IMG/VR virus record: IMGVR_UViG_3300030329_006607
Span: 1 to 50,861 of that record
DNA: 50,861 bases
Source: a virus
Reading direction: 5' to 3' (one strand)
The position numbers were made by a program, and so were the translations under genes. Positions 17,868 to 23,479 of this stretch are shown piece by piece (the first letter of the stretch is position 1; every line of letters starts with the position of its first letter). Under the pieces are notes generated by a model. The model was not told where the DNA came from. It searched no databases and saw nothing but the letters and a program-made list of their open reading frames with translations.

Positions 17868-18439
17868 TGGCAATACTAGACGGTCTAAGAACAACTAGCA
17901 AAAATTCAATTTCATGGTTTAAGGATAACGTTAGAAAACTGATGAATGATAAACGTTTTAGTCGGATTAGTCGTAACGACCTAATGAGAGATACTGACTA
18001 TATGACAACCAGATTAGAGTTGGGAAAAATGTATTTATTCCAATATGACCCCAAACATAAAAGAACATTGCCATATTATGACACATATCCGTTGACCATA
18101 CCCATAGAAAGATATAACGATGGATTTCTAGGTTTAAATCTTCATTATCTACCACCAAAATTAAGACTCACTCTCTTAGAACAGTTACTTAAATTGGTTA
18201 ATACGAAAAATATGTCAGAAAGAACTAAAATAGTTGCAACTTATAATCTACTCAGTTCAAGTGCTAAATATAAATTCATGAAACCAACGATCAAAAGATA
18301 CCTAAATAATCACATAAGAAGTCCATATATACAGATAAAACCAGAAGATTGGAAAATAGCAATATTTCTACCATACGAAGGATTTAAAAAAGCATCTAAA
18401 AACAATGTATGGAAGGATTCAACGAGGATGGTTAGATGA
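17867..18439 (+). CDS. Conserved T4-like protein next to gp4 (possibly a DNA-end/neck or hub-assembly protein)
   Basis: 190 aa. I recognise the motif GKMYLFQYDPKHKRTLPYYD and the following GFLGLNLHYLPPKLRLTLLE as a block repeatedly encoded in marine T4-like phages, but not a secure function. In T4 gene 2 (DNA end protector) is adjacent to gene 4, so gp2 is a positional candidate only. The protein is basic and soluble with no signal peptide. It overlaps gp4 by 1 bp and the next gene by 4 bp (ATGA), so all three are translationally coupled. Confidence 0.75.
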   Translation: MAILDGLRTTSKNSISWFKDNVRKLMNDKRFSRISRNDLMRDTDYMTTRLELGKMYLFQYDPKHKRTLPYYDTYPLTIPIERYNDGFLGLNLHYLPPKLRLTLLEQLLKLVNTKNMSERTKIVATYNLLSSSAKYKFMKPTIKRYLNNHIRSPYIQIKPEDWKIAIFLPYEGFKKASKNNVWKDSTRMVR

Positions 18440-19023
18440 ACATCGAAAAATTCATTAGTAAAATAAAGAAAGAAGGAATTGGCAGAACAAATCGTTTTAA
18501 AATGGACATTGCAATTCCAAACATCTTGTTGGGCAAACTACCAAATGGTCTGACTCAATCAACTATGAAAGAACACATAGAAATTATGGTTGCCAATGCT
18601 TCTATACCAAGCAAAACCATTTCTACCAATTCAGTTCTTGCGCCGGGAGCAGAGCAAAAATATCCTTATGCACCTGAAATGGAAGATATAACAATATCCT
18701 TCATGTGTACCAGAGAATTTGTAGAAAGAAAATTCATTGATGCTTGGATGAATGAAGTCGTACAGATGGATGGGGGAAGTTTTACTATCGGATATAGAAA
18801 TGAGTACAATACCGAATTAAAACTCCGAGTTTTCGATGACAAAAACACCCAAATAGACCAAATAGATTTTTCTGCATGTTTTCCATTATCTGTAAGTGCA
18901 ATAGAATTGACACATGAAGAACAATCCGAAATTCCAACATTTGAAGTTGTATTCCAGATAGATTATTGGAATAGACCAGAACGTTCATTGTGGTTAGACA
19001 AACTTCCAAAAGACGAAAACTAA
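18436..19023 (+). CDS. Tail-tube-fold protein (gp54/gp19-like tube initiator)
   Basis: 195 aa. The layout matches the tail-tube fold: TNRFKMDIAIPNILLG opening strand, IEIMVANASIPSKTIST loop, PYAPEMEDITISFMCTREF, then a helix (ERKFIDAWMNEVVQ), IGYRNEYNTELKLRVFDD, and the closing strands FSACFPLSVSAIELTHEE and TFEVVFQIDYWNRPE. Tube proteins (gp19) and the tube initiator (gp54) share this fold. As the full tube gene normally lies near the sheath gene outside this window, a gp54-type initiator role is more likely, but this is inference. Downstream there is a 40-bp gap to gp26. Confidence 0.65.
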   Translation: MNIEKFISKIKKEGIGRTNRFKMDIAIPNILLGKLPNGLTQSTMKEHIEIMVANASIPSKTISTNSVLAPGAEQKYPYAPEMEDITISFMCTREFVERKFIDAWMNEVVQMDGGSFTIGYRNEYNTELKLRVFDDKNTQIDQIDFSACFPLSVSAIELTHEEQSEIPTFEVVFQIDYWNRPERSLWLDKLPKDEN

Positions 19024-19063: not shown

Positions 19064-19762
19064 ATGGCATTACCAAAAATAAATGTACCAACATATGAAT
19101 TGACTATACCGTCTACGCAACAACAAGTTACTTATAGACCCTTTTTGGTCAAAGAAGAAAAAATATTGCTAATGGCAAATCAAGATGAAAATGATACAGA
19201 TCAAATGATTCGTGCAATGCGTCAAATAATAAATAACTGCATTTTAATGAATAATTTTGACTCTGAACAGTTGCCAATATTTGACATAGAATATATTTTC
19301 CTAAAATTAAGAGCAAAATCAGTAGGTGAAATATCTGAAGTTGGGTTTAGATGTCCAAAATGCGAAACAATCAATAAAGTAGAAATTAATTTAGAACAAG
19401 TAGAAGTAAAGACCTTTGAAGATCATACAAATCAAATACAATTAACTGACACCATTGGTGTGATTTTAAAATATCCAGATATGGACAGCATCTCTGGTGA
19501 AACAGAAGTAGAAAATGTAATGAATATTTTATCCAAAAGCATTGAGTCCATATATGAAAAGGATGAAATACATAGTGCATCTGATTATAAACCAGAAGAA
19601 ATTTCGGAATTTATAGATGGTCTAACACAAGATCAATTTGAAAAAATGCAAAAGTTCTTTGAAACAATGCCTAAACTATCACATGAAACAGAATATGTAT
19701 GTAGTAATTGCAATCATCACCAAAAACTGGTTATAGAAGGATTGCAAAATTTTTTCGGATAG
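19064..19762 (+). CDS. 26: Baseplate hub assembly protein gp26-like, with zinc-ribbon cysteines
   Basis: 232 aa (T4 gp26 208 aa), T4_baseplate family. Opening PTYELTIPSTQQQVTYRPFL VKEEKILL and the repeated helices (AMRQIINNCI, DIEYIFLKLRAKSVGE) match. Four cysteines in two pairs, CPKC (97/100) and CSNC (213/216), form a likely zinc ribbon. Ribosome site GAGGAA precedes the ATG. The gene ends in LQNFFG-stop at 19760-19762; overlapping slippery heptamers and a pseudoknot span this end (see 19747-19841), so a fraction of ribosomes is predicted to continue into the gp51-like frame, giving a 291-aa fusion. Gp26 helps build the hub around the tape-measure protein gp29 in T4; here the tape-measure gene follows four genes later. 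Confidence 0.8.
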   Translation: MALPKINVPTYELTIPSTQQQVTYRPFLVKEEKILLMANQDENDTDQMIRAMRQIINNCILMNNFDSEQLPIFDIEYIFLKLRAKSVGEISEVGFRCPKCETINKVEINLEQVEVKTFEDHTNQIQLTDTIGVILKYPDMDSISGETEVENVMNILSKSIESIYEKDEIHSASDYKPEEISEFIDGLTQDQFEKMQKFFETMPKLSHETEYVCSNCNHHQKLVIEGLQNFFG

Positions 19763-19938
19763 CATTAGGGCATAATTCATTAGAAAACGTTTATCTGACA
19801 AACTTTGCCCTAATGCAACATCATAAATATAGTTTGTCAGAATTAGAAGAAATGATTCCATTTGAACGAGAAATATATATTGCCCTTCTCAAAAATTGGA
19901 TCAAAGAAGAAAACGAAAGAATAAAACAGGAGAAGTAA
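19708..19938 (+). CDS. gp51-like tail-chaperone frame, probably expressed by -1 frameshift from gp26
   Basis: The -1 frame relative to gp26 is open from 19708 to the TAA at 19936-19938. The only in-frame start before the conserved part is a TTG at 19708 with no ribosome site. The conserved part, IALGHNSLENVYLTNFALMQ then YSLSELEEMIPFEREIYIAL LKNWIKEENERI, resembles the small gp51 hub-assembly proteins of marine T4-like phages and, in architecture, the T domain of lambda-type tail chaperones (short, acidic/aromatic, helical, ending in a charged helix). From the slip codons the extension adds 60 residues to gp26. A ribosome site (AGGAG) at 19928-19932 already belongs to the next gene. If not by frameshift, expression would depend on an unlikely TTG start. 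Confidence 0.7.
   Translation: MQSSPKTGYRRIAKFFRIALGHNSLENVYLTNFALMQHHKYSLSELEEMIPFEREIYIALLKNWIKEENERIKQEK
19747..19841 (+). promoter_or_regulatory. Programmed -1 frameshift signal: slippery site plus H-type pseudoknot
   Basis: In gp26 reading frame, U UUU UUC at 19750-19756 overlaps A AAU UUU at 19747-19753, both X XXY YYZ heptamers. After a 5-nt spacer (from the U-type site; 8 nt from the A-type) stem 1 pairs 19762-19772 (GCATTAGGGCA) with 19806-19816, a perfect 11 bp. Its loop contains 19794-19804 (TCTGACAAACT), which pairs with 19831-19841, also a perfect 11 bp. Loop 1 is 21 nt, the stem junction 1 nt, loop 3 14 nt: a classical H-type pseudoknot. Two perfect 11-bp helices in this order in AT-rich DNA are very unlikely by chance. 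The zero-frame stop (19760-19762) is at the foot of stem 1. Confidence 0.85.
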
Positions 19939-20189: not shown

Positions 20190-20966
20190 ATCAAAATCGT
20201 ACCCTATTTATTATGTTTATTGTTACTACTACCATTTGCTTCGGCAAAGGATTATTACACAACTGATAAATTATTGTACATGTGGAATTTTGATAACGAA
20301 AGAAATTTTTTGATGGATATTAAGTCGAATACAATTGCACATAAAAGAGGAACTGTCAGGTGGATTCCAAGAGAATATTCATATCATAATTCACCTGTTA
20401 TTCATATACATGGGAACATAGACCCAAAATCTAGTTTTACTATCCCTGCTCGTTATCTTGAACGGGAATTAACCGAATGGACACTCGATTTTGAATTTGG
20501 TGTTGGTTCTCACGATTTAGACCATACAGTTAGGGATAACGGAAAGTTGATGCCGTTTGGACAGATACTTAGATGGGGTGAGTTGAGAATTTTATTCTAT
20601 CAAGATTCTGGTCAGGCATGGAAAGGAATTGTTAGAATAGTATATCAGGGTGAAACGAGAACTATTGAGTATTTACGGGGATTTAAGTATTACTATATGG
20701 CAGTCAGGTCAGAAACAAACGGAATTTCAATTTGGTTAGATTCATATTGTACTGATTACATCGAAATACCCAAAAGTTCTATGGTAGGTCAACCCATTTT
20801 TTTCGGTGGAAATGGTTTTGCTGGTAGATTCGATGATATTAAATTGTACAATAAGAGATTATGGCCATGGGAAATAACAGCAAACTATTGGGGTAAAGAA
20901 TTGAAAGTGAAACCCAAAGGAAAACAATCATTGCAATGGGCAGAAATAAGATCAAAACGATTATAG
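20190..20966 (+). CDS. Secreted LamG/concanavalin-A-like domain protein, non-AUG start
   Basis: About 258 aa. No ATG or GTG precedes the conserved part in frame. A strong ribosome site, AAGGAG at 20178-20183, is followed in frame by ATT (20187) and ATC (20190); the latter has normal 6-nt spacing. From there the protein begins with a typical signal peptide, KIVPYLLCLLLLLPFASA followed by KDYY, so cleavage after ASA is likely. A TTG at 20220 would remove the basic n-region. The C-terminal third (FFGGNGFAGRFDDIKLYNKR LWPWEI) is the LamG-fold ending, which in other proteins binds glycans. A periplasmic or surface carbohydrate-binding protein is the best guess, encoded between tail chaperones and the tape-measure gene. 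Confidence 0.65.
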   Translation: MKIVPYLLCLLLLLPFASAKDYYTTDKLLYMWNFDNERNFLMDIKSNTIAHKRGTVRWIPREYSYHNSPVIHIHGNIDPKSSFTIPARYLERELTEWTLDFEFGVGSHDLDHTVRDNGKLMPFGQILRWGELRILFYQDSGQAWKGIVRIVYQGETRTIEYLRGFKYYYMAVRSETNGISIWLDSYCTDYIEIPKSSMVGQPIFFGGNGFAGRFDDIKLYNKRLWPWEITANYWGKELKVKPKGKQSLQWAEIRSKRL

Positions 20967-21199: not shown

Positions 21200-23479
21200 A
21201 TGGCAGACGAAAGAAGTATAGAACAAATAAAAGGTGAACTTCGGCAAGAAGAAGAAAATCTACAAGCATTGCGTAAAAAATATCTTGGTACTGCCATCAA
21301 AGATTACGAAGATAGCATTCGTGATTTAGAAAAAATAAAGGCAGAAGAAGAAGCATATACCAAAGCAGTTACAGATGCCTTGATAGAAAAAACCATTGCT
21401 CAAGACGTATTAAAAGATCAACAAGATGAACTTGCAAAGGCACAACAAGAAAATGATGAAGCAAAAATATCTCAACTTCAAACTGAAATAAGTAACTCGC
21501 AACGAGAAGTCGATCTGGCAAGTCAGGCACATACAATTGCAGTTGAATCACAGAAGAAAGAACAAGAACAAAGAGAAAAATTAGCAGAAAATTTAGAAAA
21601 AAATGTAGCATCTATGGATGCTCAACTTCGTAAGAAGAAAGATTTCGTAGAACAAGAACAAAAAATATCTGGTCTGCAAACAGAACAACAAGAATCAGAA
21701 GATTTTTCCGATTCTATCAGTACCTTCGGTGAAACTATTGATAACTTTTATCAAACTTTACAAGGAACTTCTCTTGCTTCCAATGAAGAGGAACCGTCAT
21801 GGGTCAAAGTAATCGTTGGAGCAATTTTATCCGCATCACCACAATCCGATCCATTTCGTTTAGAAAAGGCAAGAGAAGAACAAACAGCAAGAGCAAATAC
21901 ACAACAAACCATTGAAGAAATAAGAGATAATACAGAAGACATTGCTGATTCTATAGACGATATAGATACAGATGTAGGTGGAAAAGGTATTAGTGGATTC
22001 TTGGCACTTCTTGCTGGAGCTGCTTTTGGTTTTATTTCAGAAATTGTAAAGCAAGTTTGGGCAGTAGCAAAAGGTCTTGGTAAATTATTTAAACTTATTG
22101 GTGGTGGTATAAAAACTGCATTCACCAAAGTCTTTGGTGGACTGATTACTAAAATAAAGAGTTTCATACCTCAATCAGTTTTTGACAAAATTGATGAAGG
22201 GGTAGACATTTTCAGGGGATTTGTGAGTAGAATTCGCAACTTCTTTGGTAGATTTATGCCAATCGCAAATGCAGCTGATGATGTCGGGGATGCCGCTAAA
22301 GGTGGTTTGGGCATTTTTAAAAGAATAAAGGGATTTTTCAGTATTTTTGATGACCTGATAAAACCCCTCAGATCAATGTTTAAATTGGGTGCTAGTGTAG
22401 GTACAAAAATAGGTAGGGTTTTAGGCCCAATAGGATTGATAATTACTGTAATAGACGCAACCTTTAAAGGTGTAAAGGGTTTAATATCAGGATTCAAAGA
22501 AGATGGTATTCTTGGTGGAATCAAAGGTGCAATAATGGGAATTTTTGATTCTTTAGTCGGAAGTGTTGTCAATCTTGGTGCAGATATAATAGGATGGATG
22601 GTAAAGAAGTTAGGATTTGAAAATACGGGTCAGAAAATCATGGATTTCGATTTCATGAATATCGTAAGTGGATTACTTGATGCTATATTGACTCCATTTA
22701 GAACAATCCAAGAGATAAGTGCATTAATAACACAAACCTTTGCTGGATTCAATCCACTAGATGCGATCAAAAATGCTATTGTTGCACTAACCCCTAATAT
22801 ATTCGGTTTAAAGGAGTTTGTTGCAACTCAAATGGGAACAACAGTTGAAGAAGCAACGGCAAAAAATGAAGAAAATAAAGAAAAATTTGTAGAATTTGGT
22901 AGTAAAGTCAAAGAAATCATTGCAAGACGAATTGTCAACCTTGTACCAAAAGCATTTGGCATAAGAGAAAAATTTGCAGAACTTCTTAATGTTCCCCTCG
23001 ATGATACTGGTAGTGCTATTAATCAAAGTGAAATAAAACGAGAAAACGATCTTGAAAATTTTGTTACGAATAGAATAAAAGAAGCAGAAGCAAAGGCACA
23101 AGCAGAAGGTGCAACAGAAGAAGAGATGATACTGGTAAAGTCCTTTGCAAAAGCAGATGCAAAAAAACAATTCGATGACAATTATGATAAATGGCAACAA
23201 GAAGGAAAAAACATAGTAAAAGAATCTGCCAATGCACTGAAAATAACTCAGGAAGAAATAGCAGATACACAAAAAAATATAATAGAAAAACATCAAGAAA
23301 ATGTAGAAGGAAAAGAAAAGGCACAACGAAGTGGTTCTACAGCAATTAATGCACCAACGAATGTCAATAACACCAATACTACAGTTTCGTCTGATACAAT
23401 TGCTGTGCCTAGTGCTGTACAGGATGCACAATTTCTCCAAAACATGGCAGGGGATTTAGTAACTTCTCTAGGATGGTAA
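21200..23479 (+). CDS. Tail tape-measure protein (gp29 counterpart)
   Basis: 759 aa, last gene of the rightward operon. Residues 1-160 are a long charged coiled coil (SIEQIKGELRQEEENLQALR and following heptads). The middle, about 265-480, is hydrophobic Gly/Ala/Ile-rich helices with repeated GG and FGG motifs (SGFLALLAGAAFGFISEIV, LGKLFKLIGGGIKTAFTKVF, IGRVLGPIGLIITVIDATFK), as in tape-measure proteins that later pass into the host membrane. Residues 620-720 are a second coiled coil. T4 gp29 is 590 aa and occupies the equivalent place after the hub chaperones. The length should set tail length. Ends just before a hairpin that terminates transcription from the opposite strand. Confidence 0.8.
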   Translation: MADERSIEQIKGELRQEEENLQALRKKYLGTAIKDYEDSIRDLEKIKAEEEAYTKAVTDALIEKTIAQDVLKDQQDELAKAQQENDEAKISQLQTEISNSQREVDLASQAHTIAVESQKKEQEQREKLAENLEKNVASMDAQLRKKKDFVEQEQKISGLQTEQQESEDFSDSISTFGETIDNFYQTLQGTSLASNEEEPSWVKVIVGAILSASPQSDPFRLEKAREEQTARANTQQTIEEIRDNTEDIADSIDDIDTDVGGKGISGFLALLAGAAFGFISEIVKQVWAVAKGLGKLFKLIGGGIKTAFTKVFGGLITKIKSFIPQSVFDKIDEGVDIFRGFVSRIRNFFGRFMPIANAADDVGDAAKGGLGIFKRIKGFFSIFDDLIKPLRSMFKLGASVGTKIGRVLGPIGLIITVIDATFKGVKGLISGFKEDGILGGIKGAIMGIFDSLVGSVVNLGADIIGWMVKKLGFENTGQKIMDFDFMNIVSGLLDAILTPFRTIQEISALITQTFAGFNPLDAIKNAIVALTPNIFGLKEFVATQMGTTVEEATAKNEENKEKFVEFGSKVKEIIARRIVNLVPKAFGIREKFAELLNVPLDDTGSAINQSEIKRENDLENFVTNRIKEAEAKAQAEGATEEEMILVKSFAKADAKKQFDDNYDKWQQEGKNIVKESANALKITQEEIADTQKNIIEKHQENVEGKEKAQRSGSTAINAPTNVNNTNTTVSSDTIAVPSAVQDAQFLQNMAGDLVTSLGW

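Follow-up and report, generated by a model that had tools for sequence, protein, structure and literature searches.

Probable programmed −1 ribosomal frameshifting in the gp26 putative tail chaperone gene of a T4-like phage and its relatives

Results

A marine T4-like phage very probably produces two forms of a putative tail assembly chaperone, of 232 and 291 aa, from its single gp26 gene by programmed −1 ribosomal frameshifting on a U_UUU_UUC slip site, a reading drawn from the sequence of the phage and its relatives. The sequence is the 50,861-nt stretch of IMG/VR record IMGVR_UViG_3300030329_006607 (positions 1 to 50,861), hereafter the window; the tail tube, gp26 and probable tape measure genes and the elements around the slip site lie on its plus strand. 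The sequence itself, the frame relation, the homology of the encoded peptides, their conservation and the non-random structure around the slip site are matters of direct observation.

Gene order at the gp26 locus

The gp26 gene (19064 to 19762, with its TAG stop at 19760 to 19762) has an SD-like GAGGAA 5' of its ATG and encodes 232 aa corresponding to the short chaperone form (TAC-N), with matches to phrog_150 (E = 4e-73) and PF12322 (E = 7e-70). Directly 5' of it is the tail tube protein gene (18436 to 19023; phrog_45 tail tube, E = 6e-31, and a weak PF06841 gp19 match), and downstream is a 759-aa ORF (21200 to 23479) taken as the probable tape measure protein on position and length. Pfam and PHROG-type searches with this ORF returned no significant family match and BLAST gave nothing usable; the record of phage HTVC008M carries a “putative tail tape measure” annotation at the equivalent position. 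The order of tail tube, gp26 and long tape-measure-like ORF is thus the one expected of a G/GT-type chaperone, with the tape measure assigned by position. Between the chaperone gene and the probable tape measure gene lies a 248-aa ORF (20220 to 20966) with no Pfam or PHROG matches.

Assembly or sequencing error as the source of the frame break was ruled out. The locus is not an assembly slip, since its sequence recurs in a separate IMG/VR contig (L083/L167) at 100% identity over 6.7 kb and 99.98% over 13.2 kb, and the frame relation is repeated in 162 relatives.

Slip site and −1-frame peptide

The zero-frame codons at the end of gp26 read CAA AAT TTT TTC GGA TAG, which places the slippery heptamer T_TTT_TTC (U_UUU_UUC) at 19750 to 19756 in the zero-frame register. 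The first-pass annotation had named two overlapping heptamers, and a codon check confirms that both are in register; A_AAT_TTT (19747 to 19753) is found in only 25 of 163 loci and is incidental. The 5-nt spacer it gave (19757 to 19761) was confirmed by a letter check, and the zero-frame stop, placed there three codons after the slip, is actually the second codon past the heptamer (GGA, then TAG).

Past the slip, the −1 frame (19756 to 19938) adds 60 residues and a stop, and these are gp51-like as had been suggested, being homologous to the C-terminal end of gp51 in T4. Counted from the second Phe, the 61-residue peptide has a match to phrog_634 (“baseplate hub assembly catalyst,” i.e., gp51) with E = 7e-27, it also matches the end of the phrog_150 (gp26) profile, and a profile match to residues 207–247 of T4-type gp51 has E = 2e-6. 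The frame would therefore encode the C-domain of a long form (TAC-C).

The composition of gp51 in T4-type phages clarifies this relationship. The gp51 of T2 consists of PF12322 over residues 1–201 (E = 4e-55) and a C-terminal stretch of about 48 residues with which the −1-frame peptide aligns, and therefore T4-type gp51 is a gp26 paralogue with the C-domain attached, that is, a long form with a gene of its own; the gp51 proteins of T2, CHI14 and Acj9 all combine a gp26 domain with a C-domain as a separate gene. In profile comparisons (hhalign), the window's gp26 family aligns with T4-type gp26 at E = 3.5e-27 and with T4-type gp51 at E = 2e-13. The window locus thus has both the PF12322 domain and the C-domain common to gp51 that mark the T4 gp26/gp51 family, and this composition, taken with the gene order, upholds the earlier proposal that gp26/gp51 are the T4-like version of G/GT.

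An AlphaFold model of the chaperone (pLDDT 87) returned no significant PDB matches. The HK97 tail assembly chaperone 2ob9_B had the highest probability (0.28) with E = 1.9, a weak and non-significant fold match that may offer a hint, and only a hint, of a chaperone role. No sequence similarity of gp26 to solved chaperone structures was detectable.

Conservation of the frame and slip site

By tblastn, 773 phage records have gp26 and 528 have the −1 peptide. Each of the 162 relatives that were fetched has its C-domain in the −1 frame relative to gp26, and an in-register TTTTTTN heptamer is present at all 163 loci when the window is counted. In a later-fetched set the heptamer is found in 174 of 175 loci, including every one of 108 new distinct loci. 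These counts agree with the proposal that gp26 is extended by −1 frameshifting into the gp51-like frame. The sole relative without the T6 heptamer (L208, about 1490–1510) reads GTGTTTTCG there, which is either a true loss or a sequence error.

Removal of sequences at least 90% identical from the first set leaves 126 distinct loci, all with TTTTTTN. At each of these the codon before the first Phe of the heptamer ends in T (126/126, against a background of 37%) and the first Phe codon is TTT (126/126, background 77%). A run of T6 to T8 occurs in every distinct locus of this set, as would also be expected from RNA polymerase slippage on the T6 run, in which mRNAs with an added base would encode the fusion. 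We consider this extremely improbable, as the run is usually exactly six and keeps a fixed codon register, with its first T in the third position of the codon before the first Phe (an earlier start is seen in 0 of 234 distinct loci); polymerase slippage is indifferent to codon register and predicts neither a stem 5 nt downstream nor an SD-like element upstream, both of which are described below.

The heptamer cassette also occurs in KVP40, VH7D, PX29, phiN3, Atu_ph04, OLIVR5, Melnitz, Mosig, HTVC008M, P-HM1, four other cyanophages and Pseudomonas phage pf16. It was looked for in the gp26 genes of T2 and Acj9 and is absent from both, which use two divergent genes. In the Ackermannviridae phages KFM-TASP06 (L179:3290-3400) and Ds25CZ (L181:3240-3402), a C-domain-like peptide in the −1 frame directly follows gp26 without a canonical heptamer.

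None of the fetched phage records annotates a joined gp26-C-domain gene; some lack the C-domain, some truncate it to an internal ATG, and some list it as a separate ORF. In four public cyanophage records (L185, L186, L187 and L188) about 170 nt past gp26 are unannotated, yet they encode the conserved C-domain in the −1 frame.

The −1 frame had been described as having no ATG. ATGs do occur inside the domain (the first at 19813), and the description is correct for the point where the conserved domain begins. There is also an upstream −1-frame TTG at 19708; neither it nor any of the domain-internal ATGs has a Shine-Dalgarno sequence, and the −1 frame has no plausible start of its own. This bears directly on the reading implied by most public annotations, in which the gp51-like frame forms an independent gene that has a start codon for itself, perhaps reached by coupled re-initiation at the gp26 stop. 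Public records do annotate short ORFs from internal ATGs, and in KVP40 a TAATG overlaps the gp26 stop. However, the annotated starts omit about 20 conserved residues that run gap-free from the heptamer, the window has no Shine-Dalgarno-bearing start before the conserved domain, and in 112 of the 126 distinct loci the interval that would have to supply an ATG, from the upstream −1-frame stop to the early C-domain, contains none. Separate initiation fails because such starts are lacking, and it would also leave the invariant in-register U6, the SD-like element and the stem unexplained; we regard it as highly unlikely. The TAATG is found besides the heptamer in both KVP40 (L171:2505-2515), where it is the annotated gp51 start, and VH7D (L184), so that these two phages could use frameshifting, re-initiation or both.

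Stimulatory elements around the slip site

Cassettes of the dnaX type have an upstream Shine-Dalgarno sequence. In the window, an SD-like GAAGGA (19736 to 19741), 8 nt upstream of the heptamer, is a candidate 5' stimulator, and family-wide an SD-like GAGGA placed 8–10 nt 5' of the heptamer is favored beyond what the protein constrains. Pairing to the anti-SD averages −5.81 kcal/mol across the family vs. −4.39 kcal/mol in synonymous recodings, and at the codons of the site Glu is GAG in 86/135 cases (background 21%) and Gly is GGA or GGG in 137/227 (background 33%); these contrasts, and those for the stems below, ignore shared ancestry.

Downstream, the excess of folding over synonymous recodings peaks 5 nt past the heptamer, with a mean z of −1.37 ± 0.14 compared to −0.06 to −0.56 elsewhere (126 loci). 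A stem of −9 kcal/mol or lower starting 3–10 nt past the heptamer is present in 93 of 124 loci (36 ± 5 in recodings), and one of at least 9 bp about 5 nt past it in 33 of 121 (11 ± 2 when shuffled), with a similar result in the hold-out loci (33/104 vs. 14 ± 2.5). The downstream partner of the stem varies by lineage, giving loops of 5, 13, 34, 62 or, most often, 84–94 nt.

The long-range version of the stem pairs the codons of ALSH with those of PWERE, at 41 loci vs. 2.8 expected. In L027, L077, L139, L157 and other loci it joins the start of the −1 frame (6–17 nt past the heptamer) to its middle (102–113 nt past it), and third codon positions face each other. Among 4,560 12-pair windows it has the top rank for Watson-Crick covariation, in the hold-out two of its pairs between third codon positions come 4th and 18th of 6,903, and in neither set does any of the 300 column-wise codon shuffles reach its frequency. 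A sister-pair test, with 17 double Watson-Crick changes vs. 3–16 in wrong registers, did not add to this support. The long-range stem is probably a real element, although this is not proved. Taken together, the SD-like element, the heptamer and the stem make up what is predicted to be a complete −1 frameshift cassette of the bacterial type.

The pseudoknot of the window

The window carries its own version of the downstream structure, which the first-pass annotation had read as a perfect H-type pseudoknot, and every base that it reported is present. Stem 1 pairs GCATTAGGGCA (19762 to 19772) with TGCCCTAATGC (19806 to 19816), stem 2 pairs TCTGACAAACT (19794 to 19804) with AGTTTGTCAGA (19831 to 19841), and each has 11 of 11 bp. 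A single nucleotide (19805) forms the junction, loops 1 and 3 measure 21 and 14 nt, respectively, and stem 1 opens with the G of the gp26 stop TAG. When the −1-frame protein was held fixed and recoded with the phage's own codon usage, the pseudoknot stacking energy of −41.1 kcal/mol (loops not scored) was reached by 0 of 20,000 synonymous recodings, and the energy of stem 1 alone by 6 of 20,000.

The same two stems are not kept in relatives, so that the pseudoknot does not stand as a conserved element. In the nearest relative (L084), 8+2 bp remain of stem 1 and 6 of stem 2; L166 and L168–L170 have a different 7-bp stem. Of the two features to be looked for in an alignment of relatives, the conserved heptamer was found (163/163) and compensatory changes in both stems were not, none being found in the window's own stems among the seven other loci with the pattern. 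Because no compensatory change is seen, what argues for the pseudoknot is its improbability and its position. Searches with Rfam gave zero matches at the gathering score for the window, with chance-level miRNA-type matches only. The perfect pseudoknot is private to the window phage and is an unusually strong version of the downstream structure.

It is also important to consider that −1 frameshifting may be real while the stimulator in the window is a simple or nested hairpin on stem 1, with stem 2 unused. Plain folding of 19740–19860 (z = −3.5) gives stem 1 with a nested hairpin, an alternative fold to the pseudoknot, and L163 and L165, as read from their sequences, retain stem 1 apart from a mismatch and two G-U pairs, while their stem 2 is lost and a hairpin within the loop takes its place. 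However, both stems of the window are complete at 11/11 in the classic H-type arrangement, none of the 20,000 recodings equals them, and L084 retains 6 bp of stem 2, which makes a stimulator of stem 1 alone seem unlikely, and the pseudoknot the preferred reading.

Discussion

In the mechanism that we propose, most ribosomes would terminate at the TAG to give the short form of 232 aa. Some would stall at the downstream pseudoknot while the upstream SD-like element pairs with 16S rRNA, and these stalled ribosomes would slip by −1 on U_UUU_UUC to give a long form of 231 + 60 = 291 aa with the gp51-like C-domain. The lambda proteins gpG and gpGT suggest, by analogy, that the short form may coat the tape measure protein and the C-domain may recruit tail-tube subunits. 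We infer the slipping of the ribosome and its rate, the action of the window pseudoknot as stimulator, and the chaperone role, for which the grounds are homology to T4 gp26/gp51, gene order and the lambda analogy. Counted against the proposal are the lack of conservation of the window pseudoknot, L208 and the gp26 genes of T2 and Acj9 without the heptamer, and the nested-hairpin alternative.

In lambda and other long-tailed phages (Xu, Hendrix and Duda, 2004), the chaperone has a short (G) and a long (GT) form, to which gp26 and the gp26-51 fusion correspond, and on the sequence evidence a slippery site close to the 3' end of the short-form gene would let a −1 frameshift extend the product. 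The window system differs from lambda-type chaperones in that gp26 has 232 aa with two CxxC motifs, the heptamer is U UUU UUC, and the downstream structures are strong. With T4 and the Tevenvirinae it shares gp26 as the short form and a gp51 made of a gp26-like domain and the same C-domain; there, two divergent genes are used and the heptamer is absent. Bacterial −1 cassettes of the dnaX, IS911 and IS3411 class have in common with it a slippery heptamer and a downstream stem-loop or pseudoknot, some with distant partners, according to a 2016 review (PMC5009743), whereas in the T4-like group the partner of the downstream stem changes between lineages.

The same review describes the tail-chaperone frameshift as general in long-tailed phages “except T4” (PMC5009743). 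The first-pass annotation knew of no description of the frameshift in T4-like phages, which overstated its novelty. Vladimirov, Gautam and Davidson (Virology 2022, pmid 34826709) are reported to have identified tail-assembly chaperone genes of T4-like phages, under a title that stresses a mechanism other than frameshifting. They are cited in PMC10274946 for T4-like phages carrying short and fused long genes, and are credited in PMC12846349 with poly-T slippery sites in T4-like short-form genes. The non-frameshift mechanism of the title suits T4-type phages, in which gp26 and gp51 have a gene each, but not the group to which the window belongs. Going by these citations, frameshifting at the gp26 gene of some T4-like phages has probably been described already. 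In the chaperone locus of Vandenendeviridae and Andersonviridae, other phage families, PMC12846349 likewise reports a −1 frame open in every genome and a conserved poly-T motif ending the short form, there GTTTTT; its passage on this locus gives no analysis of structure. We found no description, with overlap with Vladimirov et al. (2022) judged from its title and citing papers, of the near-invariance in Kyanoviridae and outside them, the cassette as a whole, the swapping of downstream stems between lineages or the window pseudoknot.

A broader proposition, to which we give about even odds, is that most T4-like phages outside the enteric T4 group share a universal −1 cassette (SD-like element, U_UUU_UUN and a stem 5 nt on), with the downstream stem swapped between lineages as a compact pseudoknot, a local hairpin, or a long-range stem with its arms offset by about 96 nt in C-domain codons, third position facing third. 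On this view T4 would have gained its separate gp51 secondarily, as a hard-wired substitute for the frameshift product. The T4-like group would provide one fixed slip site with a natural series of interchangeable frameshift stimulators, and the annotation of gp26/gp51 in hundreds of public phage genomes is probably incomplete. Among marine T4-like phages, which are abundant, the chaperone frameshift appears close to universal, whereas T4 itself uses two genes, and the replacement of one solution by the other therefore becomes testable.
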